A stretch of 64,000 nucleotides of DNA from Paenibacillus sp. JCM 18996. GTDB taxonomy: Bacteria > Bacillota > Bacilli > Paenibacillales > NBRC-103111. The notes beneath the pieces are model-generated. The model worked only from the letters and a program-made list of their open reading frames with translations, was not told the origin of the DNA and did no database searches. Made by a program: the position numbers and the translations under genes. Shown piece after piece: positions 17,479 to 48,937 of the stretch. The DNA lies in the NCBI GenBank assembly GCA_001313085.1, contig BBFE01000003.1, positions 1 through 64,000 on the forward strand. Direction: 5' to 3'. The stretch's first letter is position 1. The number at the start of each line of letters is the position of its first letter.

Positions 17479-17493
17479 GATACAAATTGTATC
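17479..17493. promoter_or_regulatory. GATAC-N5-GTATC operator, site 1
   Basis: GATACAAATTGTATC, directly after an AT-rich -10-like TATAAAAT and 8 bp before the ribosome site of the 51-codon gene. Part of the seven-copy family described in the findings. Confidence 0.7.
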
Positions 17494-17515
17494 TAAAAAA
17501 AGAGGAGGTAAAGAA

Positions 17516-17671
17516 GTGCCGTATTTATACTTTAAAGAGTCTTGGACGCCGCTTAAAATCATTGGGATTCGGTTTTTTACAGATGACGAAGGAGGTTTTT
17601 GGATCAAAATTTGGAATTTCCACAGACGACAGATCATAAAGAAATTACCAAGCTATCTTCGGCGGACGTAA
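17516..17671 (+). CDS. Small basic protein of unknown function
   Basis: 51 residues starting at GTG 17516 behind a very strong AGAGGAGGT. The product is rich in aromatic and basic residues ('YLYFKESWTPLKIIGIRFF', 'WIKIWNFHRRQIIKKLPSY'). No family recognised. A GATAC-N5-GTATC site overlaps its likely transcription start, so it probably belongs to the same regulon as the capsule genes. Confidence 0.6.
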   Translation: MPYLYFKESWTPLKIIGIRFFTDDEGGFWIKIWNFHRRQIIKKLPSYLRRT

Positions 17672-17751
17672 ACAGCAATCTTTAAATCATTTTCCTTATA
17701 CACAAAGCCAGGGACACAACAGGAGTGTCCTTTATGCGTGTCCCACCGCTG

Positions 17752-17913
17752 CTTCACAGCTTCATATATCCGCATAGGCGGCACAGTTTTGCGTGCCATA
17801 ATATGTTAGGCACTTGATCGCCTGTTCTTGCTCGTCTTTGGATTTCAGTTCATAGGCCCCCGGCGGGTTCCGTATCGCTATTTCACAGCTTCATAAATCC
17901 GCATAGGAGGCAC
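17752..17913. repeat. Imperfect 32-bp direct repeat flanking the methyltransferase 3' end
   Basis: 17752-17783 and 17882-17913 match at 30 of 32 positions. The second copy encodes the methyltransferase C-terminus (RIYEAVK, minus strand); the first would encode the same residues without the rest of the gene. This suggests a partial duplication of the gene end. Confidence 0.6.
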
Positions 17914-18464
17914 GTTCCAGAGATAATACTCATCTTTAGCCGTGGCGAATGTATCTCTCATATGATCGAGGAGATGGCGGTTGTGCTGGAAGAAGGTCTG
18001 ATAAGGCAAAAAAAATTTTCCTCCCTCGCGGAGAATGCGGTGTGTTTGACGGACGATATCTTGTCGCGTGGGTGTGTCCAAGAAAGAGAAAGGGATCCCC
18101 GAAAGCACATAATCGGCGCCCTCGTCAGTAACTCGCGATACAAGCTCGGCCACTCTCTCGGCACTGTCATGGTAAATCGTCAAGCGGTGATCGGAAAACG
18201 TCTCCCGCAGTATAGAAACAAAGTTCGGATTCCGCTCGATCACGATAATTTTGGAACCAGGAGTCATATTTTTTTCAGGATATAGCTTGTAAATACGCCC
18301 GTAGCCGGACCATACTCGACAAAAAGATTATCTTTGGAAAAGTCGATTTTGCTGCATACCTTTTGGACGCCCGACGCGGAAGTAGGCATGATCGACGCAA
18401 TATGCTTGTCTGTGATCACATTTTTTAAATATACAAAGGCACTCACCAGATTCTCCCCATTCAT
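17878..18464 (-). CDS. SAM-dependent methyltransferase (phospholipid/RsmA-like)
   Basis: About 195 residues with a class I methyltransferase core: the SAM-binding 'LFVEYGPATGVFTSYILKK', then 'KIIVIERNPNFVSILRETF' and 'ADYVLSGIPFSFLD'. The YGPATGVFT and SGIPFS motifs resemble PmtA-type phospholipid N-methyltransferases and the KsgA fold. One frame break at the run near 18270. ATG 18464 is the best start. Substrate is uncertain: phospholipid methylation is the known role of the nearest relatives. Confidence 0.7.
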
Positions 18465-18614
18465 ATACTGTCATATTTTGGACTCTAACTAATGTCCCCC
18501 GGCAGAAGAAACTTATTCGCTTGTATTGCAAAAAACCCCCGCCAAAAGAAAGCATAAAACACTCCCGCCGCGCATAAAAGCTACAAGAGCATTCCGCTAT
18601 TAAGGGGGAGTACC

Positions 18615-19536
18615 TTGCCTATAAAGCCCAAGGCTTTACGAAGTGGAGACACGATTGGATTGGTGACGTTAGGCAGTCCGCTCGACCGCTCGGTCATTGA
18701 TGAAAGGGTGGGCACTTTACAGGATATGGGATTCAAAGTCGTTATGGGCAAAACGGTCTACTTGGAGACAGGCTTCCTCGCAGGCACCGACGAAGAGCGC
18801 GCAGCCGACCTGATGAGCATGTTCCGCAATCCCGCTGTGAAAATGATTCTGCCCGTGCGTGGAGGCGTAGGAGTTGCCGGCATCCTGCCTTACCTTGATT
18901 ATAAGGTGATAGGGAAAAACCCTAAAATCATAACGGGGTACAGCGACATTACGATTCTGTTAAACGTCCTTTATGAATTAGTCGACCTGATCACCTTTCA
19001 CAGCTTGCTGCTGATCGACTTCAAACCGGAGACTCCGGACTACAGCTTCAACCAGTTTTTTTTCGGCGGTGTCGGTGGTTTCGCCTACCCGTACAATCGA
19101 AAATCCGCCGGGCATGCCATTGGCAGGAAGAGGAGGAGGCAGCGCAACAGGGCGTATCGTGGGAGGGAATATAACTTCTTTTGTGGGAATGCTCGGGACC
19201 CCTTACGAGATCGATACCCGGGGCAAAATCCTGCTGCTGGAAGAGACCCACGAGGCGATCAATACGGTGTACCGGTATCTGAACCATCTGAAGCTGGCCG
19301 GCAAGTTCAAGGGCTGCGCAGGCATCGTACTGGGGGAATGCACCAACTGCGTGCCAGCTTATGGGGTGGATTACGAGGAGCTGATCAGTACCTTCTTCGA
19401 ACCGATGGGCAAACCGCTTATCACCGGTCTCGCTTCGGGCCACGGCCGCTATAAGGCAGCGATTCCGATAGGCGCGAATGTGCATATGGATGCAGATGAA
19501 GGCACGCTCACGATCCTCGAACCCACGGTACAGTGA
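18615..19536 (+). CDS. LD-carboxypeptidase (peptidase S66, LdcA/MccF type)
   Basis: Serine peptidase of about 306 residues that trims murein tetrapeptides or inactivates microcin-like compounds. Triad motifs: nucleophile Ser in 'ITGYSDITILLN', Glu in 'LLLEETHEAINT', His in 'ITGLASGHGRYK'. N-terminal 'ALRSGDTIGLVTLGSPLD' and 'MILPVRGGVGVAGILPYLDY' are standard S66 blocks. The start is TTG 18615 behind AAGGGGGAG. One frame break in the T run near 19057. Cytoplasmic, no signal peptide. Confidence 0.85.
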
Positions 19537-19608
19537 AGGCAGCCTGTAAATTCTACATCTTTCGCCAAGGTTTACCCAGGAACTTAAAATATTTGTAAAA
19601 GGAAGAAA

Positions 19609-19628
19609 AGAGCTGCCGCAGCAGCTCT
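19609..19628. terminator. Short hairpin between convergent genes
   Basis: AGAGCTGC-CGCA-GCAGCTCT stem followed by CCTCT, placed between the LD-carboxypeptidase and a minus-strand small gene. Near-identical core to the palindrome at 13044. Confidence 0.5.
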
Positions 19629-19631
19629 CCT

Positions 19632-19814
19632 CTAGACGGATAATTTATTATTTACTACAGGCTTCGCAGCGGCAAGAGGAAATTGAAACGACGGTGGAGC
19701 CGAATCGGTTGGGGATAAACGGTTCTCGCCTTCCTGCCACTGCTTGAAGCTTTCCGGATCGATTCCCAACTGTGCGACGATAGTGCATAAGTCCAATTTC
19801 CTTCTGCTTAACAT
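19632..19814 (-). CDS. Small protein of unknown function
   Basis: 60 residues, intact, with ATG 19814 behind GGGAGGA. The N-terminal half 'RRKLDLCTIVAQLGIDPESF' looks like a short helical unit; the C-terminal half is Pro/Ala-rich. No family recognised. It lies on the same strand as the XRE regulator, about 430 bp downstream of its stop. Confidence 0.55.
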   Translation of the reverse strand: MLSRRKLDLCTIVAQLGIDPESFKQWQEGENRLSPTDSAPPSFQFPLAAAKPVVNNKLSV

Positions 19815-20204
19815 AAATCCATCCTCCCTTAGAAGACGGTCGGTTGCACTACTCGCTCCTTCGAATCCAAGTGCCCAGATACAGATTCAATATCATCGCT
19901 TCCAATTTTTTTTATTTACCCATAGTTTATCAGATAAATAGAGAGTAATTTGTCGAAACAGGTCGCCGAATCAATCATACTTTGTCTCAATTTTTTGTAT
20001 CAAGGGATTAAGGCTGTCTCACGGATACGGATGAACTATACATTTTTTCCCAAAGGCATAACCCAAGAACTTAACATATTCATTGAACAGCCAAAAGAGG
20101 CCCTTACTGTAAAGCGCTCCTTTTGGCTGTCATTATCAGACTGCTATGTATAGTATACCTTGTTAATTTTTTAGTCTCCTAAATGTAAATATCCGGTAAA
20201 ACCA
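19815..20204. other. Intergenic stretch with one hairpin
   Basis: No gene seen. CAGCCAAAAG (20088-20097) and CTTTTGGCTG (20120-20129) form a 10-bp stem with a partly pairing interior; it could terminate the XRE transcript on the minus strand. Confidence 0.45.
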
Positions 20205-20234
20205 TTGACACCGATACATTACGTATCGTAAATT
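20205..20234 (+). promoter_or_regulatory. Promoter with GATAC-N5-GTATC operator in its spacer, site 2
   Basis: TTGACA (20205-20210), operator GATACATTACGTATC (20213-20227), then TAAATT (20229-20234); spacer 18 bp. It points rightward, into the 3' end of the minus-strand XRE gene that ends at 20247, so its transcript would be antisense to that regulator. Confidence 0.6.
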
Positions 20235-20246
20235 AAGGGAAGTAAA

Positions 20247-20622
20247 TTACTTGTCCTGATGGAACGCTCGGCGCGGATGAATGCAATGAACCGCATAGCT
20301 TCCTCCGGAGTCAGCTTCTTGCCGTCAATGGTCAAATCAAACTTATTCAGAATCTCGCGGTCCGACAGTTCAAGGCTGTCAACGAACTCGCGCACATCCT
20401 CGTCCAGTTCCCTGTCGGGTTCATTCGTCCTTCCGATCAGGTAGTCGACGGAAACGTTGAACAGATTCGCTATTTTTTTTCAATCGTTCTGTAGTCGGGC
20501 TCTCTTCTGTTATTCTCGTAGTGGACAGAGAAGCCCGGGTGATACCCAGTTTATTGGATAAATCTTCTTGCGTAAGGGAATGTTTTTTCTCGAAGCTGAG
20601 CTATTCTCTCCCCGTATTTCAT
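20247..20622 (-). CDS. XRE-family transcriptional regulator
   Basis: About 125 residues. Residues 1-60 form an XRE/Cro HTH: 'MKYGERIAQLREK', 'SLTQEDLSNKLGITRASLS', 'YENNRREPDY', 'IANLFNVSVDYLIGR'. The C-terminal half is acidic ('DRELDEDVREFVDSLELSD') and resembles helical dimerisation tails. ATG 20622 follows GGGGGA. Three breaks: surplus A near 20590, a lost C near 20520 and an altered run near 20475. GATAC-type palindromes lie beyond its 3' end and over its own putative promoter, and more lie before the capsule operon, so it is the prime candidate for the protein that binds them (inference). Confidence 0.75.
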
Positions 20623-20721
20623 TGTTGTATTCCCCCAGTCACAAACAATATGCGGCTATCCGTTCTATTCATCATCGAAGCTGGTATACGGCCACAATAT
20701 AGTGACTTCTTTCGACATTAT

Positions 20722-20756
20722 GATACATAATTTATCTCATTCTTATACTCTGTCGA
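20722..20756 (-). promoter_or_regulatory. Putative promoter of the XRE gene with degenerate operator
   Basis: On the minus strand TCGACA (20756-20751), 16 bp, TAAATT (20734-20729). GATACATAATTTATC (20722-20736) differs from the operator consensus at one position of the right half and overlaps the -10, which suggests autoregulation. Confidence 0.4.
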
Positions 20757-20953
20757 ATTATTGTTTAACACAGCCTTATTTATTTTACCTAAAAAAAATG
20801 ATTATGGGAAGATGCCAAGTGGACCAAAAAAAATCTCAGCACTGAACTGCCTCGCCCGAGATCGGCAAACACATTCTATGTATCTTTCGGCCCACAATAT
20901 CATTGTCTCCCGCTTATAGATTTTAAAACCTGTGCCAGACGAGGAGAGTCAAT

Positions 20954-21121
20954 ATGAACAGAGAAGCGTCAAAGCCGATTAAGACGGTGATCAGCATGGA
21001 TAAAATTCTGTCACAATTGAAGTTGAACGATTATACTGCCAGCAACGATTCCGGCCGGAACGGCAGGTGCACTGCATCGGACCAACAGGACGGCAAAGGT
21101 AAAGAATTTATAAATCTATGA
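20954..21121 (+). CDS. Small hydrophilic protein of unknown function
   Basis: 55 residues from ATG 20954 behind GAGGAGAG. Short helical N-terminal part ('KTVISMDKILSQLKL') then a Ser/Gly/Asn/Asp-rich tail. No family recognised. It is placed between the XRE regulator and the operator-bearing promoter of the capsule operon, a position where small antagonist proteins are sometimes found, but nothing in the sequence proves that. Confidence 0.4.
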   Translation: MNREASKPIKTVISMDKILSQLKLNDYTASNDSGRNGRCTASDQQDGKGKEFINL

Positions 21122-21129
21122 AAATTACG

Positions 21130-21158
21130 TTGACATGATACGACTTGTATCGTAAAGT
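21130..21158 (+). promoter_or_regulatory. Capsule-operon promoter with operator in spacer, site 3
   Basis: TTGACA (21130-21135), operator GATACGACTTGTATC (21137-21151), TAAAGT (21153-21158), spacer 17 bp. A bound regulator would exclude RNA polymerase. Drives the fused Wzz/kinase gene 160 bp downstream. Confidence 0.7.
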
Positions 21159-21174
21159 GAACTCATGTGAAATT

Positions 21175-21189
21175 GATACATTGCGTATC
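21175..21189. promoter_or_regulatory. GATAC-N5-GTATC operator, site 4
   Basis: GATACATTGCGTATC, 38 bp (start to start) downstream of site 3, near the expected transcription start. Confidence 0.7.
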
Positions 21190-21267
21190 TGAGTATGGGG
21201 CTGATGTTCTCATGCAAGAACGAAAATCGGCAAAGGAGATCCAATTAGGAACTAATCTGCGCGCGAT

Positions 21268-21282
21268 GATACAAAATGTATC
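21268..21282. promoter_or_regulatory. GATAC-N5-GTATC operator, site 5
   Basis: GATACAAAATGTATC in the leader, 93 bp after site 4 and just before the GAGGAG upstream of the first capsule gene. Confidence 0.7.
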
Positions 21283-21320
21283 TTGCTCAATAACTTTCGA
21301 GGAGACGTGGAAAAAACGGT

Positions 21321-22751
21321 ATGGAATTAGAGTTGAAAGAATACTTCGGCATTATCAAGAAGCGCATATGGATGATAACGGCGATAGTGTTAGTTGCAAG
21401 TATCACGACAGGAATCATCAGTTTTTTATTATATGAAGCCGGTGTACTCCGCCAATACGAAGCTGATCGTCAGCAAATCAAGCGACAAGCAGATCGAAAA
21501 TTTAAATTCCGACTTCGTAAGGTCCAATATCATGCTGGTCAATACGTACAAGGAGATCATCAAGACTCCGGCCATCATGGATAAAGTGGCGGCCAAGTAT
21601 CCGGAGCTCGGGTTACCTACGGACCAGCTGATCAAGAAGGTAAATATTTCCTCAGTCAACGACACGCAGGTGATCACCCTCACTATAGAAGACAACTCTT
21701 ATGAGAAAGCCGTCAAGACCGTAAACGCCATATCGGAAGTGTTCAAGAACGAGATTCCTTCCATTATGAAAGTCGACAACGTAATGATCCTTAATGAAGC
21801 CCAAATGGTGGATAAGCCTTCACCGGTCAAGCCCAATAAGCAGCTCAATCTCGCCATTTCCTTCGTCGTTTCATTGATGGCTGCAGTCGGACTGGCCTTC
21901 CTGCTGGAGTACCTCGACGATACGATCAAAACCGAGGCTGATGTCTACGCGACTCTGCAGCTGCCCGTCCTGGTCACGATCCACCAAATCAAAGAAGAAG
22001 AGTTCAAGAATTCCAAAACAAGCAAGCAGAACAGCAAAGTAGGTGAAACGCAGTATGCGGCATCAGCCAATGATTACAGATTGATTACCAGCGAGAATCC
22101 TCGCTCCTTTATTTCAGAAGCATACCGGACATTAAGAACGAATATTCAGTTTTCATCTATCGATGAACCGATCCGAAGCATAGTCATCACCTCTCCCGAG
22201 CCGTCGGAAGGCAAATCGACCACCATCGTGAACCTCGCCGCAGTGTTTGCCCAAGAGGGAAAGAAAGTCTTAATCGTCGATGCCGACATGAGAAAGCCAA
22301 CCCTTCACAACTATTTTCAAAAAAATCGAACCGGGCCGGCTTATCCAATCTGCTGGCGAATCAGTTTCCGATAGCTCAGGGCATACAAGAAACCTCTATC
22401 GATAATCTGGCGATCATCACCTCGGGTCCCGTACCGCCCAACCCGGCGGAAATGCTCGCGTCCAGACATATGGATCAGCTGCTGAAGGAGCTTAAGGACA
22501 GTTACGATATGATCTTTCTGGACTCTCCGCCTACCTTGGCGGTAACCGACGCTCAAGTATTGAGCGCCAAAGCCGACGGGGTCATCCTCGTTCTCAATAG
22601 CGGCAAAGTGAAGAAGGAATCCGCGAGGAAAGCACTGGATCGTCTCGCACATGTCAACGCCAAAGTGCTTGGAGCCGTCCTGAACAACAAAGAGCGCCGG
22701 AAGAGCGAAGCGCCTTACTACTATTATTACGGAGCAAGCTCGGCAGAATAG
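21321..22751 (+). CDS. Fused Wzz-type modulator and bacterial tyrosine kinase
   Basis: Chain-length/export regulator and autophosphorylating BY-kinase in one chain, about 475 residues. Residues 1-230: two membrane helices flanking a Wzz domain ('[20 protein letters not shown]' and '[20 protein letters not shown]'). Residues 255-475: kinase with Walker A '[15 protein letters not shown]', A' '[11 protein letters not shown]', Walker B 'MIFLDSPP' and a C-terminal cluster of five Tyr. The junction is an intact open frame of 981 bp without an internal ribosome site in frame. Breaks near 21422 (surplus T) and 22320. In most Firmicutes these are two genes, as in the second locus here. Fits epsA plus epsB of Bacillus. 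Confidence 0.83.
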
Positions 22752-22773
22752 AGCAATTTGCAAGATCGGTTTT

Positions 22774-22888
22774 TTTGGTAATGTCTACCGCACCATTATC
22801 ACTGTAGGCACTCGTTCATGCCGTGGGCACAAGCTGCCTTAGACGTAGATCGTCAAGGGTGTGAAGTGAGGAAGGGTTTGATGCCCTG
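22774..22888 (+). ncRNA. EAR-like (epsC-motif) antitermination RNA, copy 1
   Basis: A roughly 112-nt block starting GGTAATGTCT and ending TTTGATGCCCT is repeated with about 80 percent identity at 53079-53187. Both follow a tyrosine-kinase gene directly. In Bacillus the eps-associated RNA lies between epsB and epsC and lets polymerase read through terminators; here the next gene is the epsC homologue and a terminator follows at once. Identity as EAR is by position and conservation, not by covariance search. Confidence 0.65.
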
Positions 22889-22905
22889 TTTGCACATAAA
22901 AGTGC

Positions 22906-22951
22906 AAGTTATGCCGTTTTTGGCAAAACGGTATAGCTTACATTTTTTATT
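22906..22951 (+). terminator. Intrinsic terminator inside the capsule operon
   Basis: AAGTTATGCCGTTTT pairs with AAAACGGTATAGCTT around a short loop, followed by ACATTTTTTATT. It would stop transcription before the epsC-type gene unless overridden, which fits the EAR-like RNA just upstream. Confidence 0.7.
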
Positions 22952-23010
22952 CGACAAACGAGTAATCATTTAATAGAAAAAATTAAAAAAAGAAGGATGT
23001 TGAGCAGGGG

Positions 23011-24906
23011 ATGTATGTAAAGCATAGTAGCACAGAAATAACCGGCGGAATTCGTGGATTGAACTTTTTTTAATTCACAAGCGGCTGTCTATTCTGATTG
23101 GAATGGATATGCTGATCGTATGGGTAAGCATCCTTTCGTCCTATTACTTGCGGTTCGAAGGTCACGTACCCGGCCTGTATATGCAGCAGATGCTGATTTA
23201 TTCCATTATCTCGACCGTTGTTTGTACCTGCTGCATGTTTTATTTCAAGCTGTATAATCGCATCTGGCAGTACGCCAGCGTTGGTGAAATGGTATCCATT
23301 TTCAAAGCGGTCTTGGCAGGGTGCTCCATCTCTTATGTAATCGGCCTTGTGCTCACAGGGTGGAGAATTCCGCTGCAAGTTTATATGCATTCCTTTGAAA
23401 CGATCTTGTTTCTGGAAGGCGGGTCCCGGTTCGTATGGAGAATAGTACGGGATCGGTATTCAAGGAATACCAATATGAGCAAAGCTCTCATTATCGGCGC
23501 CGGCGCCTGTGGGGCGAACATTGTCAAGGAGCTTAAACAGAATGCTTCAGCAACTATGTATCCTTTTGGATTTATAGACGACAATCCTATGAAGCACCGG
23601 CAGCAGGTGAACGGAATAACAGTACTCGGCGGCCGTGACCGGATTGTGCAAATAACGGAAGAGAATGACATTGAACATATTATTATTGCTATCCCCTCAC
23701 TTACCAGAAAAGAAACATCGGAAATCATTGAAATTTGCAAGCAAACCAAAGCCAAGCTGAAGCTGATCCCCAAACTGGATGAATTGATACAAGGAGAGGC
23801 TTTCCTCAATAAAATCAGAGATGTCCAGGTCGAAGATTTACTGGGAAGAGAGCCTGTCAAGATCGATCTGCACGGTGTAGCCGATTTCGTCGAAGACAAG
23901 GTTGTCCTTGTTACTGGAGCCGGAGGATCTATCGGTTCTGAGCTCTGCAGACAGATCAGCGGGTTTAAACCGCGGACGCTTCTTTTATTGGGGCATGGTG
24001 AGAACAGCATCTATACGATTGAGATGGAGTTAAGAGCCAAGTTCCCGAAGCTGCGATTAGAGACCATCATTGCTGATGTCCAGGACAGAAGCGGATTTTC
24101 CATGTGTTTGATACATTCAGACCGCAGATTGTATTTCATGCAGCAGCCCATAAGCACGTGCCGTTAATGGAAAGGAATCCATCGGAAGCCATTAAGAACA
24201 ATGTGTTTGGCACAAAGAATGTAGCTGACGCTTCAGATAAGTATAAAGTAGAAAGATTTGTGCTCATCTCGACGGATAAAGCGGTTAACCCGACAAGCAT
24301 CATGGGCGTAACCAAGAGGATCGCCGAGATGTTTATCCAATCGTTGGACAAGACTAGCAGCACTAAATTCGTAGCTGTCCGTTTCGGGAACGTGCTCGGA
24401 AGCAGAGGCAGCGTAATTCCAAGATTCAAACAGCAGATTGCCGCAGGCGGACCCGTCACCGTAACTCATCCCGACATGATCCGTTATTTTATGACCATTC
24501 CGGAGGCGGTACAGCTGGTCATCCAAGCCGGATCCTTCGCCCAAGGAGGAGAGGTATTCATCCTGGATATGGGAAGTCCGGTGAAGATTGTCGACCTCGC
24601 CACGGATTTGATCCGGCTTTCTGGCTTCGAGCCAGGCGAAGATATTGAGATTGAATTCTCCGGTATACGTCCGGGAGAGAAGCTGTTTGAGGAGCTGTTG
24701 ATGGACGAGGAAGGCATCACGGATACTTCGCATAACCGGATATTCATCGGAAAGCCGATGTTTATCAATCACAAGGAATTAGAGCTTGAAATCAAACGGT
24801 TAGAAAAAAGTAGTCGGCGAAGGACATGAAATGATCCGCGACATGGTAAAGCAGCTGGTGCCCGGGTTCCAACATGAATCTAAAAAAAGTGCTTGTTCAA
24901 GTGTAA
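23011..24906 (+). CDS. epsC: EpsC-type membrane nucleotide-sugar 4,6-dehydratase
   Basis: Membrane-bound UDP-GlcNAc 4,6-dehydratase-type enzyme of about 630 residues. Four N-terminal membrane helices ('LIVWVSILSSYYLRF', 'LIYSIISTVVCTCCMFYF'), a CoA-binding-like Rossmann fold ('ALIIGAGACGANIVKEL'), then the catalytic SDR domain ('VVLVTGAGGSIGSELCRQI'). The active site reads 'STDKAVNPTSIMGVTKRIAE', with Met in place of the usual Tyr as in PglF/WbpM enzymes. Breaks near 23065, 24092, 24803 and 24882; the corrected frame ends at TAA 24904-24906. With the EpsN- and EpsM-type genes it would make a bacillosamine-type sugar. Confidence 0.85.
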
Positions 24907-24967
24907 CAAGAGCATTGTGCAATGATGAAGATAGTACAAACCGGAATAAAAGGAGAAAAAATACGGA

Positions 24968-25852
24968 ATGAAGGTACGCAAAGCCATTATCCCGGCAGCT
25001 GGACTTGGAACAAGGTTTCTGCCTGCCACCAAAGCCATGCCTAAAGAGATGCTGCCTATCGTTGATAAACCGACTATCCAATACATCGTTGAAGAGGCAG
25101 TCGAATCGGGAATTGAAGATATCATCATCGTCACCGGTAAAGGCAAAAGAGCGATCGAAGACCACTTCGACAATTCCTTTGAATTGGAACAAAGCTTGCT
25201 GGAAAAAAGGAAAGCTTGAGCTGCTGAACGAAGTGCAGAAATCCTCCAAAATGGTAGACATTCATTATATCCGCCAAAAGGAAGCCAGAGGATTGGGCCA
25301 CGCCGTCTGGTGTGCACGAAAGTTTATAGGCAACGAACCATTCGCTGTGCTTCTGGGAGACGATATAGTACAAGCCGAAAAGCCTTGCTTAAGACAAATG
25401 ATTGAGCAATATCAACGTTACAAAGCATCGGTTATCGGGGTACAGCGTGTATCTGATGATGAGGTTTCACGTTATGGAATAGTTGACGCCCAACAATTAA
25501 ATGATCGCTTTTACAGCGTAAATAGTTTAGTAGAGAAACCGAAAAGAGAAGACGCCCCGTCTAATCTTGCTATCATGGGTCGCTACATTCTTAGCCCAAG
25601 AATTTTTTGAGATTCTTGATCATCAATCGCCTGGAGCAGGTGGAGAAATCCAACTGACTGATGCTATTGCGCAGCTGAATCAACATGAAGCTGTTTATGC
25701 TTACGATTTTGAAGGCGTTAGATATGATGTTGGTGAAAAAAATGGGTTTTATCAAAACGACTATTGAATTTGCATTACAACGTGAAGATTTAAGACACAG
25801 TATACTTGAGTATCTTTCGAAAGTAATGGAACAAGAATTAATAATAAAATAG
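24968..25852 (+). CDS. galU: UTP-glucose-1-phosphate uridylyltransferase
   Basis: Makes UDP-glucose from UTP and glucose-1-phosphate, about 293 residues. The nucleotide-binding loop '[20 protein letters not shown]' and 'LLGDDIV', 'GEIQLTDAI' and 'YDVGEKMGF' are standard for the family. ATG 24968 has AAAGGAG upstream. Breaks at runs near 25204, 25604 and 25738. Supplies UDP-glucose, from which GalE downstream makes UDP-galactose. Confidence 0.9.
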
Positions 25853-25963
25853 ATTTAACAGTTATATACCATAACTTGAAATGGGGACTAGATTTTATTA
25901 AACATTATTAAAAAAGTAGGTTTATTACTTGATTTTAAGTTAGTCAGGAAGGAACAATTTTGA

Positions 25964-40151: not shown

Positions 40152-40219
40152 AAACCCCGCGATGAAGAAGCACATGCCTTGATTGAGGCAAATGCGCTTT
40201 GGAACAGCGGGGTTTTTTT
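40152..40219 (+). terminator. Intrinsic terminator
   Basis: AAACCCCGC pairs with GCGGGGTTT across a 45-nt loop that folds partly on itself (GCATTTGCCTC against ATGCCTTGATTGAGG), followed by T7. Ends the capsule locus 1 transcript. Confidence 0.75.
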
Positions 40220-40289
40220 GCATTCAAGCTGGATTATTTCATTAATGTGTTAATCAATAGAAAACTATTGATAAAGGGGATATATAGAA

Positions 40290-40650: not shown

Positions 40651-40795
40651 AAGCCGAACATGAAGCATCAGACGTTTACTGTTCACCGAACACCGCTCTT
40701 TGCTGATGTCATTCTGGACACTTGTGGAGCGGCATTACGCATTATGTCTCTCTTTACTTGATCAAGCATTTTAAGAAGACGGACGGTGATTGTGT

Positions 40796-41673
40796 ATGAG
40801 TAAGAATTTCGATTCATCACAGAGTGGGGCGTGGTTGAAATGTGGCGGGATTGTCGTTCTCATCGGATGTATAGTTTTTTTTAAGCTATTTTTTTACTGG
40901 CAGCGTGAAAACATCACTGCGGCAGAGAATAGCATCAAGCTTGTGGACAATCACCAGCAGCACACCAAGGATATCAAGGAGCAAGGGGACCCGCAAAAAA
41001 ACAGCAAACTATAGTGGAGAAACCAATGCATAGCAAGACGGAAAATACGGCTACCTCTATTAGTACCCCAGTAAACCAGGGTCCGCCATCTGTGAAGGAT
41101 GAAAGCAGCACCACTAAGCAGACGAACTCTCCAGCAGTCCAACAGCAAGAGATTCAAACAGATAATCAGGCAGTAAACTCGGTCCAACCTAGCAATCCTG
41201 CTCCAACAGAAGAACCATCGCAGAACAATCCTGCTCCCGCATCAGCGTCTAAACCAGCGGCAGATTCAACTTCCAGTGGAACACCTAAGCCGGAAGCAGA
41301 TTCTACACCCAATAAACCCGCAGCAGCTAATCCGGATATAGAAGCAAAATACAGAGCGCAGCTGCTAAGCCTTAAAGGCCAGTGCGAAGCCCAGGCGAGC
41401 TCCATTGTCGGAGAGATTGCTGCCTACTTGTCCAGCCAGAATTCCACGGACGGCATTAATGGATCAAAATCAAAATACCTATCACGAATCTCGGCAGCCG
41501 AGGCTTCCTGCGACCGGCAGGTAGGCTCGATTATTGAGAAGGCTAAAGATGAGCTTCGTCAAGCGGGACTGGATGACTCCGGACCGGACGGCTGGCGTCA
41601 GGAGTATGAGGCGGTCAAAGGAGCTGCACAAGCAAGGGCTTTAACCGAATTGGAAAAACAACATCCCAAATAG
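40796..41673 (+). CDS. Membrane-anchored protein with long Pro/Ser linker and helical C-terminus
   Basis: About 290 residues. One hydrophobic helix near residues 14-32 ('GGIVVLIGCIVFFKLFF'), a Pro/Ala/Ser/Thr/Gln-rich linker of about 120 residues, and a helical C-terminal domain with two Cys ('LKGQCEAQASSIVGEIAAYL', 'AEASCDRQVGSIIEKAKDEL'). Same overall plan as the proteins at 39422 and 48102 but a different tail. Breaks near 40880 and 40995. ATG 40796 chosen; TTG 40790 is in frame. It lies 31 bp before the sinR-type gene and may share its transcript. Confidence 0.6.
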
Positions 41674-41704
41674 GGTCGATATTATATAAAATAAGGTGAT
41701 CTAA

Positions 41705-42007
41705 TTGATAGGCAACCGTATTCAAAAGCTGAGGCAGCAAAAGCGTTTATCCCTGACTGAATTATCACACCGCTCGGGTGTGGCTAAATCTTATTTGAGT
41801 TCGATTGAGCGCAATCTTCAGAGGAATCCGTCTATTGAAATTCTTCAAAAGCTGGCCCCCGAGCTTGGGGTCGATATACATAGTCTGGTTAGTGAAGAGT
41901 ATTCACCCGAATTTTTGAGTAAGGAATGGATTGAGCTGGTCCAAGAAGTGAAGGCTTCTGGAGTGAGCATTGAAGCCATACGTGGGTATCTGAAAAGCAA
42001 TAAATAA
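41705..42007 (+). CDS. sinR: SinR-type transcriptional regulator
   Basis: DNA-binding biofilm repressor homologue, 100 residues, intact. Residues 1-63 are the HTH: 'MIGNRIQKLRQQKRLSLTEL', 'SGVAKSYLSSIERNLQRNPS', almost the Bacillus SinR recognition helix. The tail 'KEWIELVQEVKASGVSIEAI' with 'RGYL' matches the SinI/SinR dimerisation hook. Start is TTG 41705 behind AAGGTGAT, which would keep expression low. No sinI-like gene lies next to it. In Bacillus, SinR represses the eps operon, so control of the neighbouring capsule loci is plausible. Confidence 0.85.
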   Translation: MIGNRIQKLRQQKRLSLTELSHRSGVAKSYLSSIERNLQRNPSIEILQKLAPELGVDIHSLVSEEYSPEFLSKEWIELVQEVKASGVSIEAIRGYLKSNK

Positions 42008-42048
42008 ATGCAAGCGCTTTAGTTATACCTAAAGATAAGGGTGGAAAT

Positions 42049-42270
42049 ATGGCGGCAATTAAAATGAAACTGGTTTGCAATCTCAGAGAGCTTTTGAAGC
42101 GGGAAGGAAAGTCGATGAACTGGCTCGCTAAAATTGCCGGTGCTTCTTCGCGTTCCCAGGCGCAGCGCTGGTGCAGCGGCGAAATTCCCCATCCCGGTTA
42201 TCTGCTTCGAATCAGTAAGGAAACCGGTTGGACGTTGGAAGAGATGCTAGAGGAAATAGTAGAATCTTGA
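42049..42270 (+). CDS. Small XRE-like HTH protein
   Basis: 73 residues, intact, ATG 42049 behind AAGGGTGG. 'LRELLKREGKSMNWLAKIAG' and 'RWCSGEIPHPGYLLRISKET' form a compact HTH, with 'GWTLEEMLEEIVES' as tail. Lies 41 bp after sinR and probably shares its transcript. No dimerisation hook of the SinR kind is seen; its partner or target is unknown. Confidence 0.65.
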   Translation: MAAIKMKLVCNLRELLKREGKSMNWLAKIAGASSRSQAQRWCSGEIPHPGYLLRISKETGWTLEEMLEEIVES

Positions 42271-42302
42271 CAGACTGGCGGTTAAGCGGTAAAGGCAGTA
42301 GT

Positions 42303-42650
42303 TTACAAGTAATGCATAGTAGCCTCGCTGCGGACTAGGAATCTGATGTTGATACCGGTTTGGCCCATTCCTTTTGAAATGTAATAAGTGCCATAGGGAG
42401 TGCTGTGCAGACCCGTGTAAAACGTGAATAAGCCTGCGGAGTTTTAGTTGCTGATGATCATGGTTGCCAAGTACGGCGTAGGTGGGGATTTGGGAGTCCC
42501 TAACAACGGCCAAATATTCTTTTAACCTCGGGAGTCTGCCCGGGAGCTTGGTAAAATCGCCAGTGATAAAGATATAGTCTGGTTTTTTTCTTTTCCAATG
42601 ACCGCTTGCAGTTTCTTCGTATTAATCCTCAGTCTTTCCTACCCGAAAAA
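42303..42650 (-). pseudogene. Metallophosphoesterase remnant with internal deletion
   Basis: The minus strand encodes the start of a calcineurin-like phosphoesterase ('PDYIFITGDFTKLPGRLP', 'IPTYAVLGNHDH') joined, with a frame change, to its C-terminus ('GLHSTPYGTYYISKGMGQTG' and 'INIRFLVRSEATMHYL'). The stretch that should hold the GHTHGG-type metal ligands is absent, so about 100 residues are deleted and the gene is probably dead. No start codon with ribosome site seen. Confidence 0.6.
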
Positions 42651-42790
42651 ATTCATTTATTTGATACGTAGTGTACCATATAAAGTAGCCCTCTGCCTGT
42701 AAGGCGGATAAGAAATAAATAAGGATTAACCGCTTTAATTATAACGGTTAATCCTTCATACATTTTTTTGAAAGATGAGTGTCACAAAAT

Positions 42791-43484
42791 TTAAGAAGTA
42801 ATGGCATTCAAAGATAGATTTGACTTTATAGGTTTTGCGGGTGATCCCACTGCCGTACAATTTGCAGGGATATTCTTAACGGCGGTAGAGCCCGCACCAA
42901 GGATTGAATTTGATCCTATCACCACGTGTGGTAATATGGCGGCACCCAATCCAATAAAGACCCCTTCTTGAATATGGACATAACCGCCTATATTGACGCC
43001 AGGAGATATTTGCGAATAATCTTCCAACAATGTATTATGGCCAATTGTCGCAGTTTTATTTATAGTTACATGACTTCCTATTTCAACTTCCGGATCAATA
43101 ATAGCGCCAGGTAGAATAATGTTGCCTGTTCCCATTTTAGAAAATGGAGAAATAATTGCTGTTGGGTGTATAGCATTAATAAAATTAAGATTTGAATATT
43201 TAGCAGAAATTCTCCTTCTTAAATTAGTATTCCCTACTGCAATGATAAACTTGTAATGTTGAAGTTCATTTGATGATAAATTATCAAGAAACGTTTCAAT
43301 TGGTCCATGAACCGGAATAGTGTGCTTATTTTTATTAATTAGATTTTCATTATCATCAATAAACGCGATATTTTTTAATATCTATTTGATTATCAATCAA
43401 GATATTAACTGTCATTAATCCGAGGCCGCCTGCTCCAATAATAAATATTTTTTCTGAGTTTGCGTTTACTTCTGTTTTGTTCAT
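42791..43484 (-). CDS. epsM: EpsM-type sugar O/N-acyltransferase (NeuD family)
   Basis: Acetyltransferase of about 230 residues. The N-terminal Rossmann-like half has 'KIFIIGAGGLGLMTVNILID'; the C-terminal half is a left-handed helix of hexapeptides ('VTINKTATIGHNTLLEDYSQ', 'GVFIGLGAAILPHVVIGSNS') ending 'IPANCTAVGSPAKPIKS'. ATG 43484 follows AAGGATGG. One break near 43378. With the EpsC- and EpsN-type enzymes it would complete a diacetamido (bacillosamine-type) sugar, although it lies on the opposite strand from them. Confidence 0.82.
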
Positions 43485-43606
43485 TAACTACCATCCTTTG
43501 ATTTCAAAATAGAAAAAAAATTATGAGACACTGGAAGAAGAAATGGAAAAAAATGTTAAATACTTGCTATTGTCCGAATATAAGATAAAAAATGTGGCAG
43601 AAATAT

Positions 43607-43621
43607 GATACAAACTGTATC
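43607..43621. promoter_or_regulatory. GATAC-N5-GTATC operator, site 6
   Basis: GATACAAACTGTATC, 139 bp before the response-regulator start. No convincing -35/-10 pair brackets it as at sites 2, 3 and 7. Confidence 0.65.
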
Positions 43622-43759
43622 ATCCAACATTTTCTAATCGTTTCCAGCGAGAATTTAAGACAATTTTGGTGTGCTCTGGTAATATTAAATTATGCAAAAA
43701 ATACAAGCTTGATAGTGCTGGTAGGATACGGAGTAAAAAAAGGATGTGCAGAATGCAAA

Positions 43760-44472
43760 ATGTCGACGCCTACAATAGCAATAGTTGAAGACGATACGAA
43801 TATTCGCAATCTGGTCGAATCGTATTTGCTTAAGGAAGGGTATGAAACGATTGGCTTAGTATCGGCGGAAGAGGCTGAGGATCTATGGCGGAAGGATCCG
43901 CCTGATCTATGGGTATTGGATATTATGCTGCCCGGAATGGATGGCTATGAATTCTGTCAACGGCTTAGAAAGAAATCGGAGAATCCGGTCATCATGATTT
44001 CCGCGCTGGATGAAGAGATGAGTAGAATTAAGGGGATTAAGTTAGGCAGTGACGATTATTTAACGAAACCTTTTAATCCGCAGGAATTGGTCGCAAGGGT
44101 AAATCGATTGTTATATCGCTGGAGAATGTTCAGTAAACACGAAGAGGTTTTATCGAAAGGACCAAGTCAAAACACGGGCGAAACTTCTGTTCCAGGACTC
44201 CAAATTTTTTTGAAGACGAACACCGGGTGGTTTGGAAAGGAAGCGAAATTGAGGTAACCACAAAGGAATTTCAATTCCTTCTTTACATGGTGCAGAATAT
44301 CAATCGTCCTTGTTCTCGGGAAGCTTTGCTGGATAAAGTGTGGGGATACGATTTTGCCGGCTCGGACCGGAATGTCGACCATTTTGTGAAGAGACTGCGT
44401 AAAAAAAAGATGGATGGACTTATTCTTGAAACCGTATGGGGATATGGCTATCGCTTGAGAGGCCAAGTATAA
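43760..44472 (+). CDS. OmpR-family response regulator
   Basis: Two-component regulator of about 237 residues. Receiver domain: acidic pocket 'IAIVEDDTNIRNLVESYL', phospho-acceptor Asp in 'WVLDIMLPGMDGYEF', Lys in 'DDYLTKPFNPQELVARV'. C-terminal winged helix: 'EVTTKEFQFLLYMVQNINRP', 'LLDKVWGYDF', 'VDHFVKRLRKK', 'ETVWGYGYRL'. Breaks in runs near 44207 and 44402. Start ATG 43760 opens the family's usual N-terminus, though its ribosome site is distant. The kinase gene follows 38 bp downstream. Confidence 0.85.
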
Positions 44473-44510
44473 ACGAGTGTGCGTGGGCATGTTGCTAAAA
44501 GGAGTACGAA

Positions 44511-45853
44511 ATGAAGGTGAAGCTTTATACGTCGAGAAATAAACTTTTTTTATTGGATTTGTCATTATTGTTTTCATTTGTATCCTTGTCATTCTCGCCA
44601 ATCAAACATTGAAAGATAAGCAGCTTCAAATGAAAAATGAACTGTTGGCGGAAAAAAAACATATTGATCGAGATACAGAAAATCAACCGTCTTGGTCTTG
44701 TAGCGGACAATGAAGGAGCTTATTACTTTTTTTAAGTACTGCTGCTCGGGACAAAAAACGGGCATCTGCAAAAGTATAAGAATAATGTAGAAGCGGTAAA
44801 TAAAGAGCTGGAGCGTTTTCGAGCTTTACTAAGTCGGCCAGAGAATATGCAGTCATTATCCGTCTTCGAGCAAAATTGGAACAACTACGTGCAGGATAAC
44901 GAGAGAGCGTTCCAATTCGAAAAAAGAAGGAAGGGTGGATGAATCAAGGGCTGCCTTTATTGAGATCAGTTTTAATGAAACCAGACAAAGCCTTAACAGC
45001 ATGAGAGAGCAGCAGAAGGAACTCGCTGACAAGAAAGAGCTTTATATTAATCGGACTAATTTTATTATCCAGCAGGTAGATACGGCTATCACGGTGGCTT
45101 TTATCTTATTTACGATTGCTTTGGGGTGGATTCTGTCGAGAAAAAAATTGAACTGGAACATCATATGAAAGCTCAAAAGCAGTTTTTTTCAAAACACGTC
45201 ACATGAACTTAAGACTCCGCTGATGTCGATTCAAGGCTATGCTCAAGCCATTCTTGATGGAACCATAGATGGTGAACAAGCGGGTGATTCTCTTAAGATT
45301 ATTATAAATGAGAGCGACAGGCTCAAAAAAAGATGGTCACCGACATGATTCTTCTTTCCAGGATAGAGAACGAAGAGAATAGCTTTGAATGGCAGGCTGT
45401 ACCTTTAGAATATTTACTGGAGGAATCGATATTCCGCATTAACCCGCTGCTTAAAGAAAAGGGAGTAAGGGTTGATATACATCAAACTTTTTTTAAATGG
45501 TACAAGGTCGCCTTTGGTTAAAGTGGACTCGGAAAAATGTTTGCAAGCGCTCCTGAACATATTAAGCAATGCCCTGCGGCACGCAGCTCATGCGATTGAT
45601 ATTTCTATATTGGAAAGAGAACGGCAGGTTTGGATTGACATCAAGGATGATGGTGAAGGAATTCCTGAAGAAGTGCTTCCAAATCTTTTCCAGCGGTTTT
45701 TTCAAGGGGAAGAATGGAGAGAATGGCTTGGGACTCGCTATCTCCCGCGCAATTATCGAACAGTCTGGTGGAAGTATTGCGGCTTGGAATGATCAGGATG
45801 GAGGCGCTGTTTTTCGGATTATGCTGCCGACCATTCATGAGAAAAGAAAGTGA
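44511..45853 (+). CDS. Sensor histidine kinase
   Basis: Membrane kinase partner of the preceding regulator, about 445 residues. Helix 1 near residues 12-31, an outer domain of about 170 residues predicted helical, helix 2 near 205-225 ('VDTAITVAFILFTIALGWIL'). H-box 'NTSHELKTPLMSIQGYAQAI', N-box 'LLNILSNALRHAAH', G1 'DIKDDGEGIPEE', G2 'GENGLGLAISRAIIEQSGGS'. ATG 44511 follows AAGGAG. Breaks at runs near 44548, 44655, 44732, 44925, 45143, 45186, 45328, 45490 and 45703. The sensed signal is unknown. Confidence 0.83.
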
Positions 45854-45870
45854 ACAAAGGAGTACACACG

Positions 45871-47187
45871 GTGCAAAAAATTCATTCGATCCCTTTTTTT
45901 TATCTTCATCTTTTTTATTTCCGTTTCTGATCTATCCCTGGGGAGCCGAAGTTTATTATGCGAACGCTAAAGCTTATTATTTTATTGGGATTCTCTTTAT
46001 AATATGTACCGCAAGTATATTCAACGGTAGGAGAAATGGACGATCCTTTCGTAAAGTAACCGGAATAGAGTGGCTCCTGCTTGTTTTTTCTATTACTCAA
46101 TGCTTTGTCTACTTTTTTTTTCGGTGAAAATGTCACTCGTAGGTTATCTAACCGAGCATCAAGGTTTTCTGGTCATGACTTCTTATGTGGCTTCATTTGT
46201 CTTTGTTTCCCGCACAAGTGCGTACATAGAACAGAGAAAGATCTTTTATTTCATGTCAGTATCCGCCTTCATTGCGTCGCTATATGGTATTCTTCAGCAT
46301 TTCCATAGGGGATTTTTTTGCTGCAAGATCATATGATGGAATTTGGCTCGAGGAATTTTTTTCCTTCTTTGATAATCCCGATTATTTCGGGTCTTATTTA
46401 GTCCTGATGCTTATTATAACGATGGGCTTATTCTTATCGGAGAAGGAGTGCAAAGGAATCGCCCTTTTATTGGTCATCCTGTGTGTTCTATATATTGCCT
46501 TGCTTGAATCCGAAACACGGAGCGCGTGGCTGGGAACTGGGGTCGGTTTGTTCATCCTAACCGTATTTACTGTAAGACAAAAAAAAGATATTTATGGAGA
46601 AGGTTGGGCGTTATGTTTCTGGCCTTCGGGTTAATCTTTACCCTAATGAATATCGTTCAGAAGCATGGATATGTTCAGCGTGCCGTTACGGTTGCAGACG
46701 ATGTACAAAAGATCGTAGTCAATCAAGACAGGGGTTCGGCAGGAGCAAGCCGTTGGTTTATTTGGCAGGAATCCATGCCGCTTATAGAGGAGCACTTTTG
46801 GCTAGGTACGGGTCCGAATACATTCCGGGAAGTGTTCAAACCGCACGATCTGCCTGCTTACAATAATTACATTGGGAACAGCATTATTTATGATGAAAAT
46901 AATGAGTATTTACAAATTGCTCTAACGATGGGAGTCCCTGCACTACTTATTTATTTGATGTTTCATTGGATGATTATTTACAGGGGATTTAAAAAAAAGG
47001 CACAAGAAGGGAATGGAGAAGCACAAATCTTGAAGTATAGTTTATTAGCCGCAGCAATTGGTTATATGGTACAGGCTTTTTTTCAATATTAGTGTTGTAT
47101 CTGTTGCCCCTTATTTCTGGGTTATTCTTGGTCTGCTTGCGAATAGGGAATATATCAAGACCAAAAAACGATACCATTGTTTCTTAG
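45871..47187 (+). CDS. O-antigen ligase-family membrane protein
   Basis: About 435 residues, around ten hydrophobic segments. The Wzy_C-type core is 'YIALLESETRSAWLGTGVGL', then the outer loop 'ASRWFIWQESMPLIEEHFWL' with 'GTGPNTFREVF' and 'YDENNEYLQIALTMG'. GTG 45871 lies 9 nt after AAAGGAG and only 17 bp after the kinase stop. Breaks near 45893, 46117, 46312, 46358, 46580 and 47085. One A fewer at 47162 gives a stop at 47185-47187 after 'KTKNDTIVS', overlapping the convergent phosphatase gene by 33 bp. Confidence 0.72.
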
Positions 47188-47924
47188 TCTTCTCCGGCTC
47201 CCGTATGGATAAAGGTACAGAATCAAGGATCTGCTGTGCATTGTTTTTTTATAGTAATCGGCGTAGTCGGGACCTAATCGAGTGCCGATCAAGTCAAAGG
47301 CTTGCTGCAGCCCATAATCTCGGGGGCCTGTATTGTGTACGTCTGAAGCAATCACATGCGCCAAATTTCTCTCACAAATATCTAAAGCCGCCCGCTGCAC
47401 CTTCTTGCCAAAAAAAAGGCCGTTAATTGAATGCGCCGTAACTTGGGATCTCGCCCCTGATTGCACTAATTCCCATAAACGATCCGGGTTATTCGCAAGT
47501 TCGAGATTGCGTTCCGGATGTGCCATAACCGGTGTAATGTTGAGAATCTGAAGCTCATATAATAAATTTTCTATATTTTGCGGTACACGATTGGAAGGAA
47601 ACTCCAAAAGTACATAATGAGAATTCGCCAGCGTCAGGAGTTTTCCCGCCTCGTAGTCTTCCAATAAATCCGCATATACTCGAATTTCCTGGCCGGTCCG
47701 CACAGAGAGCTCTATGTTGTTTATCTGCAGCTGTTCCTGCAGGGACAGCACCTGATTATTCACTAACTCAGCTTCATTGTAGTATTGTCCGTTCGCATGG
47801 TGAGGGGTTGCAATTATTGTGGTAATGCCTCTGTAACCGCCATTTCCGCGAGTCGAAGCGATTCTTCCATGTCCCGCGAGCCATCATCCAAGAATGGGAG
47901 AATGTGTGAATGAATGTCAATCAT
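47155..47924 (-). CDS. Tyrosine-protein phosphatase of the CpsB/YwqE PHP family
   Basis: Metal-dependent phosphatase of about 255 residues that reverses BY-kinase phosphorylation. 'MIDIHSHILPFLDDGSRDME' is the PHP metal site; 'GQEIRVYADLL', 'VMAHPERN' and 'HVIASDVHNTGPR' are the other ligand motifs. ATG 47924 follows AAGGGGGAGA. Breaks near 47830, 47420 and 47245. It lies on the opposite strand between the two capsule loci and could act on both kinases encoded here. Confidence 0.85.
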
Positions 47925-48101
47925 GAAGTCTCCCCCTTTAATACCGCCTCTTGCTCATTGTAAACTATTCCCGCCTGACTTTCATTATTTATTTTTTTTA
48001 GATTTTCGACATTTAATTTGAGATTTTGACGAATCTTGTCGACAGTTTGTTCGCTGTCAAGAATTATGATAAAATTACCTGCACTGGAAGGAGGAATAAT
48101 A

Positions 48102-48777
48102 ATGAGAAAATTTACAAAAAAATTGGTATTATTGTAACTTCCCTTGTCGTCCTTGGCGGCGCAGCGTGGGGAGCAAAGATCTATGTTTCTAACAAAATCT
48201 ATTCGACGATAACCAGTGCAGCTTCATCGCCGGATTTTCAGAAGCAATTAAATTCAGCAGTGGACTCTCTTAAGAGTGACCCGTCGGTGGAGAGTATGAT
48301 CAATAATGCAGCTGTCGGCGATTTATCTAAATCGCTCCCGAATTCAGCCGATAAATCAGTTCAAGGCGGCTCCAATTCGACTGATAAATCAAGTCAAGAA
48401 GCTGCTTCTGCTCCAGCAACAACAGGAACCGCTAACGCACAACGAACGGACGACGCTCCGCGTTCAACCCAAGAACAGACGGACAAAGCTCAGAATTCAA
48501 CCCAACCGAATGCAGCAGGAAAAAAAACGTCTCCTTCCAACTCAACTGCACAGAATGAAAGCCCCAAACCAGTCCCGCAGTTTAAAAAAACCAGAACGAT
48601 GCCATGAATTACGCGATAAAGAAATTCAATGCCCAAGAATTGACACATTACATGGCAAGCTATTCAAACAAAAAAATGAGCTAAGCGCGAAAGAAAAGGA
48701 ACAAATTAAATCAGAGGTTCTTTCCCGTTTTTTCTGCAGAGGAACTAAAGGCGCTTATGAAGGCAGCCAATAAATAA
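48102..48777 (+). CDS. Membrane-anchored protein with disordered linker and conserved C-terminal helices
   Basis: About 222 residues. Helix near residues 8-26 ('IGIIVTSLVVLGGAAWGAK'), an Asn/Ser/Gln/Thr-rich linker of about 100 residues, then a helical tail 'YAIKKFNAQELTHYMASYSN', 'LSAKEKEQIKSEVLSRFSAE', 'ELKALMKAANK' that parallels the tail of the protein at 39422-40088. ATG 48102 follows GGAAGGAGG. Breaks at A runs near 48117, 48524, 48584 and 48670 and a T run near 48727. Function unknown. Confidence 0.6.
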
Positions 48778-48802
48778 ACCGGATTTTCTCCCAACCCCTA
48801 AT

Positions 48803-48856
48803 AAAAGTGCAAGCTGCACCGTTATTGTGAAAACGGCAGAGCTTGCACTTTTTTTT
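48803..48856 (+). terminator. Intrinsic terminator
   Basis: AAAAGTGCAAGCT pairs with AGCTTGCACTTTT (via GAGCTTGCAC) around an inner CCGTT/AACGG helix, followed by T8. Ends the 48102 transcript. Confidence 0.85.
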
Positions 48857-48887
48857 GGTATCAGGGCAGCCCTTTCTTGCTTCAGAT

Positions 48888-48937
48888 CGGACAGATACTG
48901 TATGTATCATTAAACTTTTAATAATACAAAACGTATC
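48888..48937 (+). promoter_or_regulatory. SLH-gene promoter with operator in spacer (site 7) and a second, one-mismatch site
   Basis: CGGACA (48888-48893), operator GATACTGTATGTATC (48894-48908), TAAACT (48911-48916), spacer 17 bp: the same layout as at 21130. A second site AATACAAAACGTATC (48923-48937, one mismatch) lies over the expected start of transcription. Confidence 0.65.

Follow-up and report, generated by a model that had tools for sequence, protein, structure and literature searches.

The first 64,000 nucleotides of contig BBFE01000003.1 of Paenibacillus sp. JCM 18996 (assembly GCA_001313085.1), referred to below as the window, contain a gene for an XRE-type repressor, a capsule operon next to it, and a set of palindromes of the form GATAC-N5-GTATC. 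Comparison with other genomes of the order Paenibacillales suggests that this repressor (hereafter XRE) probably binds the palindrome and represses capsule and other surface promoters, and that a small protein encoded behind a class II riboswitch for cyclic diguanosine monophosphate (c-di-GMP-II riboswitch) would act as its antirepressor. The family to which this small protein belongs was previously unannotated and is new.

A scan of the 64,000-nt window revealed seven perfect palindromes, at positions 17479, 20213, 21137, 21175, 21268, 43607, and 48894, exactly where an earlier note on this DNA, made from the sequence alone, had placed them. The three sites with one mismatch named in that note (20722, 42663, and 48923) were also present, and its list was extended by two more, at 12740 and 25439. 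The resulting total of 12 sites with at most one mismatch compares with a mean of 1.43 in dinucleotide-shuffled sequences, none of 100 shuffles reaching 12. The XRE gene (20219–20622, minus strand) is flanked by a perfect operator at its 3' end (20213–20227) and by one about 100 bases 5' of its start, in an autoregulatory position (20722–20736); the proposal that operators mark both ends of the gene thus holds, with one mismatch in the second. Three perfect operators (21137–21151, 21175–21189, and 21268–21282) lie upstream of wzz, the first gene of the capsule operon, one (43607–43621) is located 5' of a response-regulator gene (open reading frame [ORF] 43592–44257, plus strand; Response_reg, E 1.2e-28), and one (48894–48908) is 5' of a gene for an SLH protein with SLH domains at 50869–51480. 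A one-mismatch operator (48923–48937) is found 29 bases from the latter, and the one-mismatch site at 42663–42677 is weak. The remaining perfect operator, GATAC-AAATT-GTATC (17479–17493), stands just 5' of a 51-codon ORF (17516–17671, plus strand). This ORF was considered as a conserved partner and rejected, having no Pfam family and a single chance match among the loci of relatives. At three of these places the operator occupies a promoter spacer, as had been noted before: a promoter scan of 19900–21400 gave TTGACA-18-TAAATT at 20205–20234 (plus strand), which is oriented antisense to the XRE gene and faces wzz beyond it, and TTGACA-17-TAAAGT at 21130–21158 (plus strand), the spacer of which holds the operator 21137–21151, while CGGACA-17-TAAACT around the operator at 48894 was found by reading.

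In the deposited sequence, the reading frame of XRE is broken into pieces in three different frames. Many other genes of the window are likewise frameshifted (for example, 14676–16427 and 21321–22751), and low assembly quality is therefore a likely cause of the broken frame. The gene was searched as separate pieces because of this break, which also explains why the window's own piece stayed below the Pfam cut-off for helix-turn-helix (HTH) domains. The 85-aa C-terminal piece had 36 database matches, of which one was the window's own protein and the other 35 showed 61%–81% identity. These 35 relatives are 107–130 aa long, all carry an HTH domain in the precomputed Pfam annotation, with the N-terminal HTH_XRE domain expected of a phage-type repressor, and, where an organism was named, it was Paenibacillus. 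The recognition-helix region was almost invariant in an alignment of 23 sequences. By sequence, the window gene belongs to a conserved Paenibacillales family. A profile scan of genome contigs, from which the best 80 of 216 relatives were kept, yielded 79 XRE loci, mainly from Paenibacillus with a few from Cohnella. Partial collinearity links the window to three of them (L011, L008, and L009), which also have XRE next to the wzz operon; across the relatives, the genes around XRE are capsule, PilZ, and other chromosomal-type genes.

The 79 XRE loci hold 220 perfect sites, compared with a mean of 5.5 over 60 half-site arrangements (GATAC included), the next best of which gave 9, and alternative spacer lengths of 0–11 yielded at most 8. 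The refined site is GATAC-RWWWY-GTATC (GATACRWWWYGTATC). Among the 220 sites, 207 were located outside ORFs longer than 300 nt, where 22% of random positions fall. A chance origin of the palindromes, or a structural repeat unrelated to transcription, had nothing in its favour and is ruled out by the shuffles and the spacer and half-site controls; together with the positions relative to ORFs and the genome-wide co-occurrence described below, these counts make this explanation practically negligible. The 350 bases upstream of XRE itself contained a site with at most one mismatch in 69 of the 79 loci and a perfect one in 33, and 25 loci had at least two upstream sites, with 20 of 29 spacings being 32–41 bases.

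The sites also bear on the direction of control. At 63 of 217 distinct sites, the operator begins 7–8 bases after the first base of a TTGACA-like -35 element and is followed by a -10 element. Activation of the capsule promoters by XRE could be imagined, since co-occurrence and position alone give no sign of the effect. It is very improbable, because a dimer bound within the promoter spacer would block polymerase, the spacers at the window sites are of near-normal length (17–18), and the same operator occurs at phage repressor genes.

The latter finding concerns the origin of the operator. The earlier note knew of no described regulator with this site; the same palindrome turned out to be present in phages, as tandem copies next to XRE repressor genes, and a brand-new operator type is thereby ruled out. 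Tandem palindromes in IMG/VR adjoined XRE genes in 72 of 80 loci, in 42 of which XRE genes start on both strands, compared with 6.3% at random; these 80 were taken from at least 120 stretches, and many of the contigs are almost identical to one another. Operators adjoining the gene of the repressor itself, as expected of a phage-type XRE protein, are common to the relatives (69 of 79 loci) and the phages. Base frequencies at the central five positions are nearly identical between the phage operators and the host loci (the RWWWY preference), and many phage XRE genes share the helix region [IV][ST]RAxxSHxExxRxEPD. Binding sites of this type were reportedly described for the PBSX repressor by McDonnell and McConnell in 1994, the link to the present operator being drawn from sequence loci. 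In its helix motif, 15-base operator, and autoregulatory position, XRE therefore resembles the CI-like XRE repressors of Firmicutes phages of the PBSX/A500 type. It differs from them in lying within a capsule locus in the window, in belonging to a family present in 259 of 392 genomes, in having sites spread across capsule operons, and in the absence of a Cro-like HTH neighbour. A six-frame profile search of the window for a divergent cro-like HTH gene next to XRE gave only the XRE pieces and one SinR-like gene, and XRE is therefore likened to a phage repressor in its working rather than classed as a repressor of lysogeny. Loci of the six closest viral protein relatives of XRE had no perfect site near the gene, which indicates that full-length protein likeness and operator type are not strictly coupled. 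The nearest full-length relative of solved structure was the phi106 phage repressor in complex with AimX (9sf2; profile residues 2–120, E 2.2e-16). The AlphaFold model of XRE (predicted local distance difference test score [pLDDT] 82.5, predicted template modelling score [pTM] 0.53) matched its fold loosely over the full length (template modelling score about 0.5).

Co-occurrence of site and XRE, which had been proposed as a check, was surveyed in 392 genomes of the order, of which 259 matched XRE strongly, 11 weakly (E above 1e-40, kept apart), and 122 not at all. At least two refined sites were present in 239 of the 259 XRE-positive genomes, in 2 of the 11 with weak matches, and in 3 of the 122 XRE-negative ones. 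In one genome of the weak class (G057), which had 13 sites, the XRE gene is divided into two parts. Two XRE-positive genomes (G109 and G211) lacked a refined site, yet looser sites adjoin the gene. The genomes for the rpoB tree, the wzz contrast, and the riboswitch surveys were chosen by hand from lists and are not random samples. On a tree of rpoB from 27 of 30 chosen genomes, XRE must have been gained or lost five times, in at least two cases on well-supported branches, so the link between XRE and the site is more than the effect of a single clade. Both the concentration of sites at XRE genes and the co-occurrence across genomes support XRE as the probable binder, as the earlier note had supposed.

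Another XRE-type protein of the same loci, either a short one of about 70 aa that consists of the HTH alone or a SinR-like one, would be an improbable choice of main binder. Such proteins exist: HTH-only relatives in loci L256 and L269 have a similar recognition helix and a site of their own, 31 of 74 loci have a member of a mixed XRE/SinR-like cluster in the vicinity of XRE, and the window itself encodes an intact SinR-like protein at 41705–42004 (plus strand), about 20–21 kb from the split XRE gene. The latter was recovered in the six-frame profile search and combines HTH_3 with a SinI-like dimerisation stretch slightly below the Pfam cut-off; the earlier note had recognised the XRE gene at 20247–20622 and did not mention this one. 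On the other hand, the contrast of 239/259 to 3/122 was measured with the profile of the full-length XRE, the recognition helix of the window's SinR-like protein is unlike that of XRE, and the SinR site is different from GATAC-N5-GTATC. A score of 16.7 bits against the SlrR equivalog model (cut-off 250) was listed for one of the three XRE proteins scanned against the SinR/SlrR models. The HTH-only relatives, of about 64–72 aa and with a site 5' of the gene (L256:2213–2425, plus strand; L269:9734–9952, minus strand; L108:4401–4592, plus strand), may be Cro-like second players.

The genes next to the sites point to the cell surface. For 169 of 207 sites in the 79 loci, a gene of at least 90 aa started within 500 bases, and these genes were clustered. 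Representatives of the clusters were PilZ (slightly below the Pfam cut-off), metallophosphoesterase, Wzz, LytR-CpsA-Psr, a hydrolase, a short tyrosine recombinase, an epimerase, CpsB/CapC, glycosyltransferase, and asparagine synthase, as well as XRE itself. Distal sites in further genomes, inspected by reading, precede further operons of Wzz type, genes resembling sugar transferase (one) and glycosyltransferase, and genes of secreted proteins, and a few of them fall inside ORFs. A site with at most one mismatch was found within 400 bases upstream of wzz in 11 of 30 cases in XRE-positive genomes (8 perfect) and in none of 30 in XRE-negative genomes; 30 of 41 and 30 of 33 matches, respectively, were taken, and the count of 11 may be low because the wrong overlapping frame was used for a few wzz loci. 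The proposed capsule and cell-surface regulon is supported by this contrast and by the position of sites upstream of capsule genes. It was incomplete as first described, with the small protein and the c-di-GMP-II riboswitch at 19632–19912 having been missed.

The small-protein family was found by way of the antisense promoter. As a general feature, an operator promoter antisense to the 3' end of XRE was rejected: a site with at most one mismatch was located near the XRE stop codon in 21 of 79 loci, and a matching antisense -35 element was present in 7 of these 21. In six of these seven loci the promoter precedes a conserved small ORF behind the XRE stop codon on the opposite strand, encoding about 50 residues, which led to the family. 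A hidden Markov model (HMM) was started with five seed sequences and, on iteration, collected 117 members in the scanned loci (111 distinct sequences, 98 members in L001–L079). The E-values used for the growth of the family, as well as for the operator count and the iterated riboswitch count given below, refer to small local sets. Of the 79 loci, 69 encode a member no more than 3 kb from XRE. An operator with at most one mismatch was present within 250 bases 5' of 49 of 98 members, compared with 218 of 3,000 control small ORFs. Across the order, the small protein was detected in 224 of 259 XRE-positive genomes, in 1 of 11 with weak XRE matches, and in none of the 122 XRE-negative genomes. Among 150 small-protein matches listed, 105 were in genomes with a listed XRE place; of these, 104 were on the same contig as XRE (up to 1 kb away in 70 cases, up to 5 kb in 91, and up to 10 kb in 100) and one was on another contig.

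In the window, the family is represented by a 60-aa protein encoded at 19632–19814 (minus strand) and proposed to be the XRE antirepressor. The iterated HMM included this member; with an independent HMM built without it, it was the best of 564 small ORFs of the window (E 3.3e-6). A terminator-like hairpin was seen by eye 3' of the gene (19606–19628, minus strand). The second-ranking ORF, of 55 aa and located between XRE and wzz (20954–21121, plus strand), was not significant in this test (E 0.64) and matched the L009 member with 43% identity over 23 residues (E 7e-4); it may be a second member. The 18 database relatives of the small protein that were retrieved are hypothetical or uncharacterized where named, except for a single UniRef name, DUF4025.

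The window gene is preceded by a c-di-GMP-II riboswitch aptamer (RF01786) at 19829–19912 (minus strand), which scored 66.6 bits against a gathering score of 53.5, ends 14 bases 5' of the start codon, and has a GGGAGG ribosome-binding sequence directly 3' of it. The aptamer thus reaches the gathering score of a known riboswitch class, and the gene it is predicted to control encodes an unannotated small protein; a literature search revealed no paper on a c-di-GMP-II riboswitch ahead of this protein. The riboswitch was present in 33 of 60 chosen XRE-positive genomes. Forty of 53 riboswitch places were taken, the other 13 being mainly duplicates from the same genome or a near one, and with the iterated model a family member lay directly 3' of the riboswitch in 21 of these 40. 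Nine of 60 XRE-negative genomes had the riboswitch, with a family member at 1 of 13 places (G084); this genome is small (4.3 Mb) and had no rpoB match, and so may be incomplete. At one of the 13 places a SinI gene (L419:1323–1484, minus strand; 32.2 bits, cut-off 31.4) stands directly behind the riboswitch. Riboswitch-controlled small proteins starting with MKQPIDCQLLIEQLEIPLEKFEAWKKEQ form a distinct subgroup (L369, L374, L377, L379, and L383).

Judging from these arrangements, it is likely that XRE binds the operators and represses the adjoining promoters, that the repression is lifted when the small protein binds to XRE, and that c-di-GMP sets the level of the small protein. XRE would be a co-opted phage-type repressor that blocks the capsule promoters and its own gene. 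The small protein would respond to c-di-GMP where its gene is riboswitch-controlled and to XRE where it is operator-controlled. An operator is carried by half of the counted small-protein genes, and antirepression would there give a double-negative loop, possibly an on/off switch. In the window, transcription from the promoter at 20205–20234, antisense to XRE and toward the capsule operon, would reinforce the on state. Whether the whole makes up a bistable surface switch of the order, in which a c-di-GMP riboswitch feeds an antirepressor of about 50 residues that releases a phage-type repressor, with operators on the antirepressor genes and the antisense promoter locking the state, is a more tentative proposal that we regard as possible and somewhat doubtful. 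As an arrangement, the plus-strand operator promoter at 20205–20234 is excludon-like, and a similar one, with a one-mismatch site, was noticed at about 10400 (minus strand) in L008.

The small protein could instead be a corepressor or have some other job within a real XRE regulon, in which case c-di-GMP would tighten repression. This is unlikely. Its structural model, a pair of short helices predicted with moderate confidence (pLDDT 78.3, pTM 0.39), and the operator on half of the counted genes, which fits negative feedback equally, are compatible with such a role. The known small partners of related systems, namely the arbitrium protein of 9iaq and 9sf2 and SinI, are called antirepressors, and SinI occupies the slot behind the riboswitch in one XRE-negative genome, which argues for antirepression.

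Several observations weigh against the proposed regulon with its antirepressor and c-di-GMP input. Twenty of the 259 XRE-positive genomes had fewer than two refined sites. No site with at most one mismatch was found within about 3.4 kb of the XRE orthologues of six genomes (G164, G255, G291, G341, G343, and G333), nor any site in 14 kb at that of G027. The five independent phylogenetic contrasts are too few for significance, and in the two that are well supported the sites were as predicted or equal. In XRE-positive genomes, 19 of 30 wzz genes had no site, and 35 of 259 genomes had no small-protein match. No Pfam or NCBIfam family, SinI included, matched more than one of 35 small-protein members. 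The riboswitch was not found in 27 of the 60 XRE-positive genomes; its role as a fixed part of the XRE locus was rejected, as it was absent from all 21 other loci, and from these two counts the link is often elsewhere in the genome or absent. With a stricter HMM, a member stood 3' of the riboswitch at 11 of 40 places at E 0.01 and at 16 at E 0.05, a count that places two more, L389 and L398, elsewhere because the mechanically assigned start lies upstream. Single phage sites with TTGACA one base 5' had an XRE gene near in 2 of 15 loci. The intact SinR-like gene of the window belongs to the same side of the balance.

The nearest known systems offer partial parallels. SinI is a small antirepressor of SinR in Bacillus subtilis, and the SinI model is named anti-repressor in Pfam. 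The predicted system is alike in having an XRE repressor of exopolysaccharide genes with a small antirepressor, and it differs in that none of 35 small-protein members matched SinI (PF08671) at E 0.01 and in that SinR-like genes are separate from it, both in the relatives and in the window. In phi106, AimX is described as an antirepressor of the phage repressor in the titles of structures 9iaq and 9sf2, and PMC11323111 describes it as a 51-aa small protein acting on other partners. Full-length similarity of the repressors and a small-protein partner, as proposed here, are shared with this arbitrium system, which governs lysogeny, whereas XRE is predicted to govern surface genes. PMC7911366 covers the control of eps by SinR in B. 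subtilis and the eps cluster of P. polymyxa; a term search there gave no XRE regulator of the latter. A literature search, with most subscription journals outside its scope, found no description of the regulon or of the small family, no paper with the literal GATAC-N5-GTATC motif, and little on the control of capsule or exopolysaccharide in Paenibacillales. The results would provide capsule control in this order with one protein family, one operator, one small partner, and a predicted c-di-GMP input, and would assign a proposed function to a small-protein family that has no Pfam or NCBIfam model. If true, an operator code of phages has been reused across a bacterial order for control of the surface.

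Other features were noticed near these genes. The capsule operon of the window begins with Wzz and tyrosine-kinase genes in frameshifted pieces (21321–22751, plus strand; Pfam Wzz, GNVR, and AAA_31) and contains an epsC (EAR) RNA at 22776–22887 (plus strand; RF01735, 102.3 bits). A second such RNA is located at 53078–53187 (plus strand), one for each Wzz/kinase operon, the second operon beginning near 51700. In 22 of 74 loci, the neighbourhood of XRE encodes a tyrosine recombinase that is short, at about 172 aa (Phage_integrase; for example, L026:10738–11256, minus strand). One group of relatives (L001, L003, L005, and L006) has cobalamin riboswitches a few kilobases away from XRE. In eight loci an operator is found within 500 bases of the tyrosine recombinase gene, which may represent an inversion switch.

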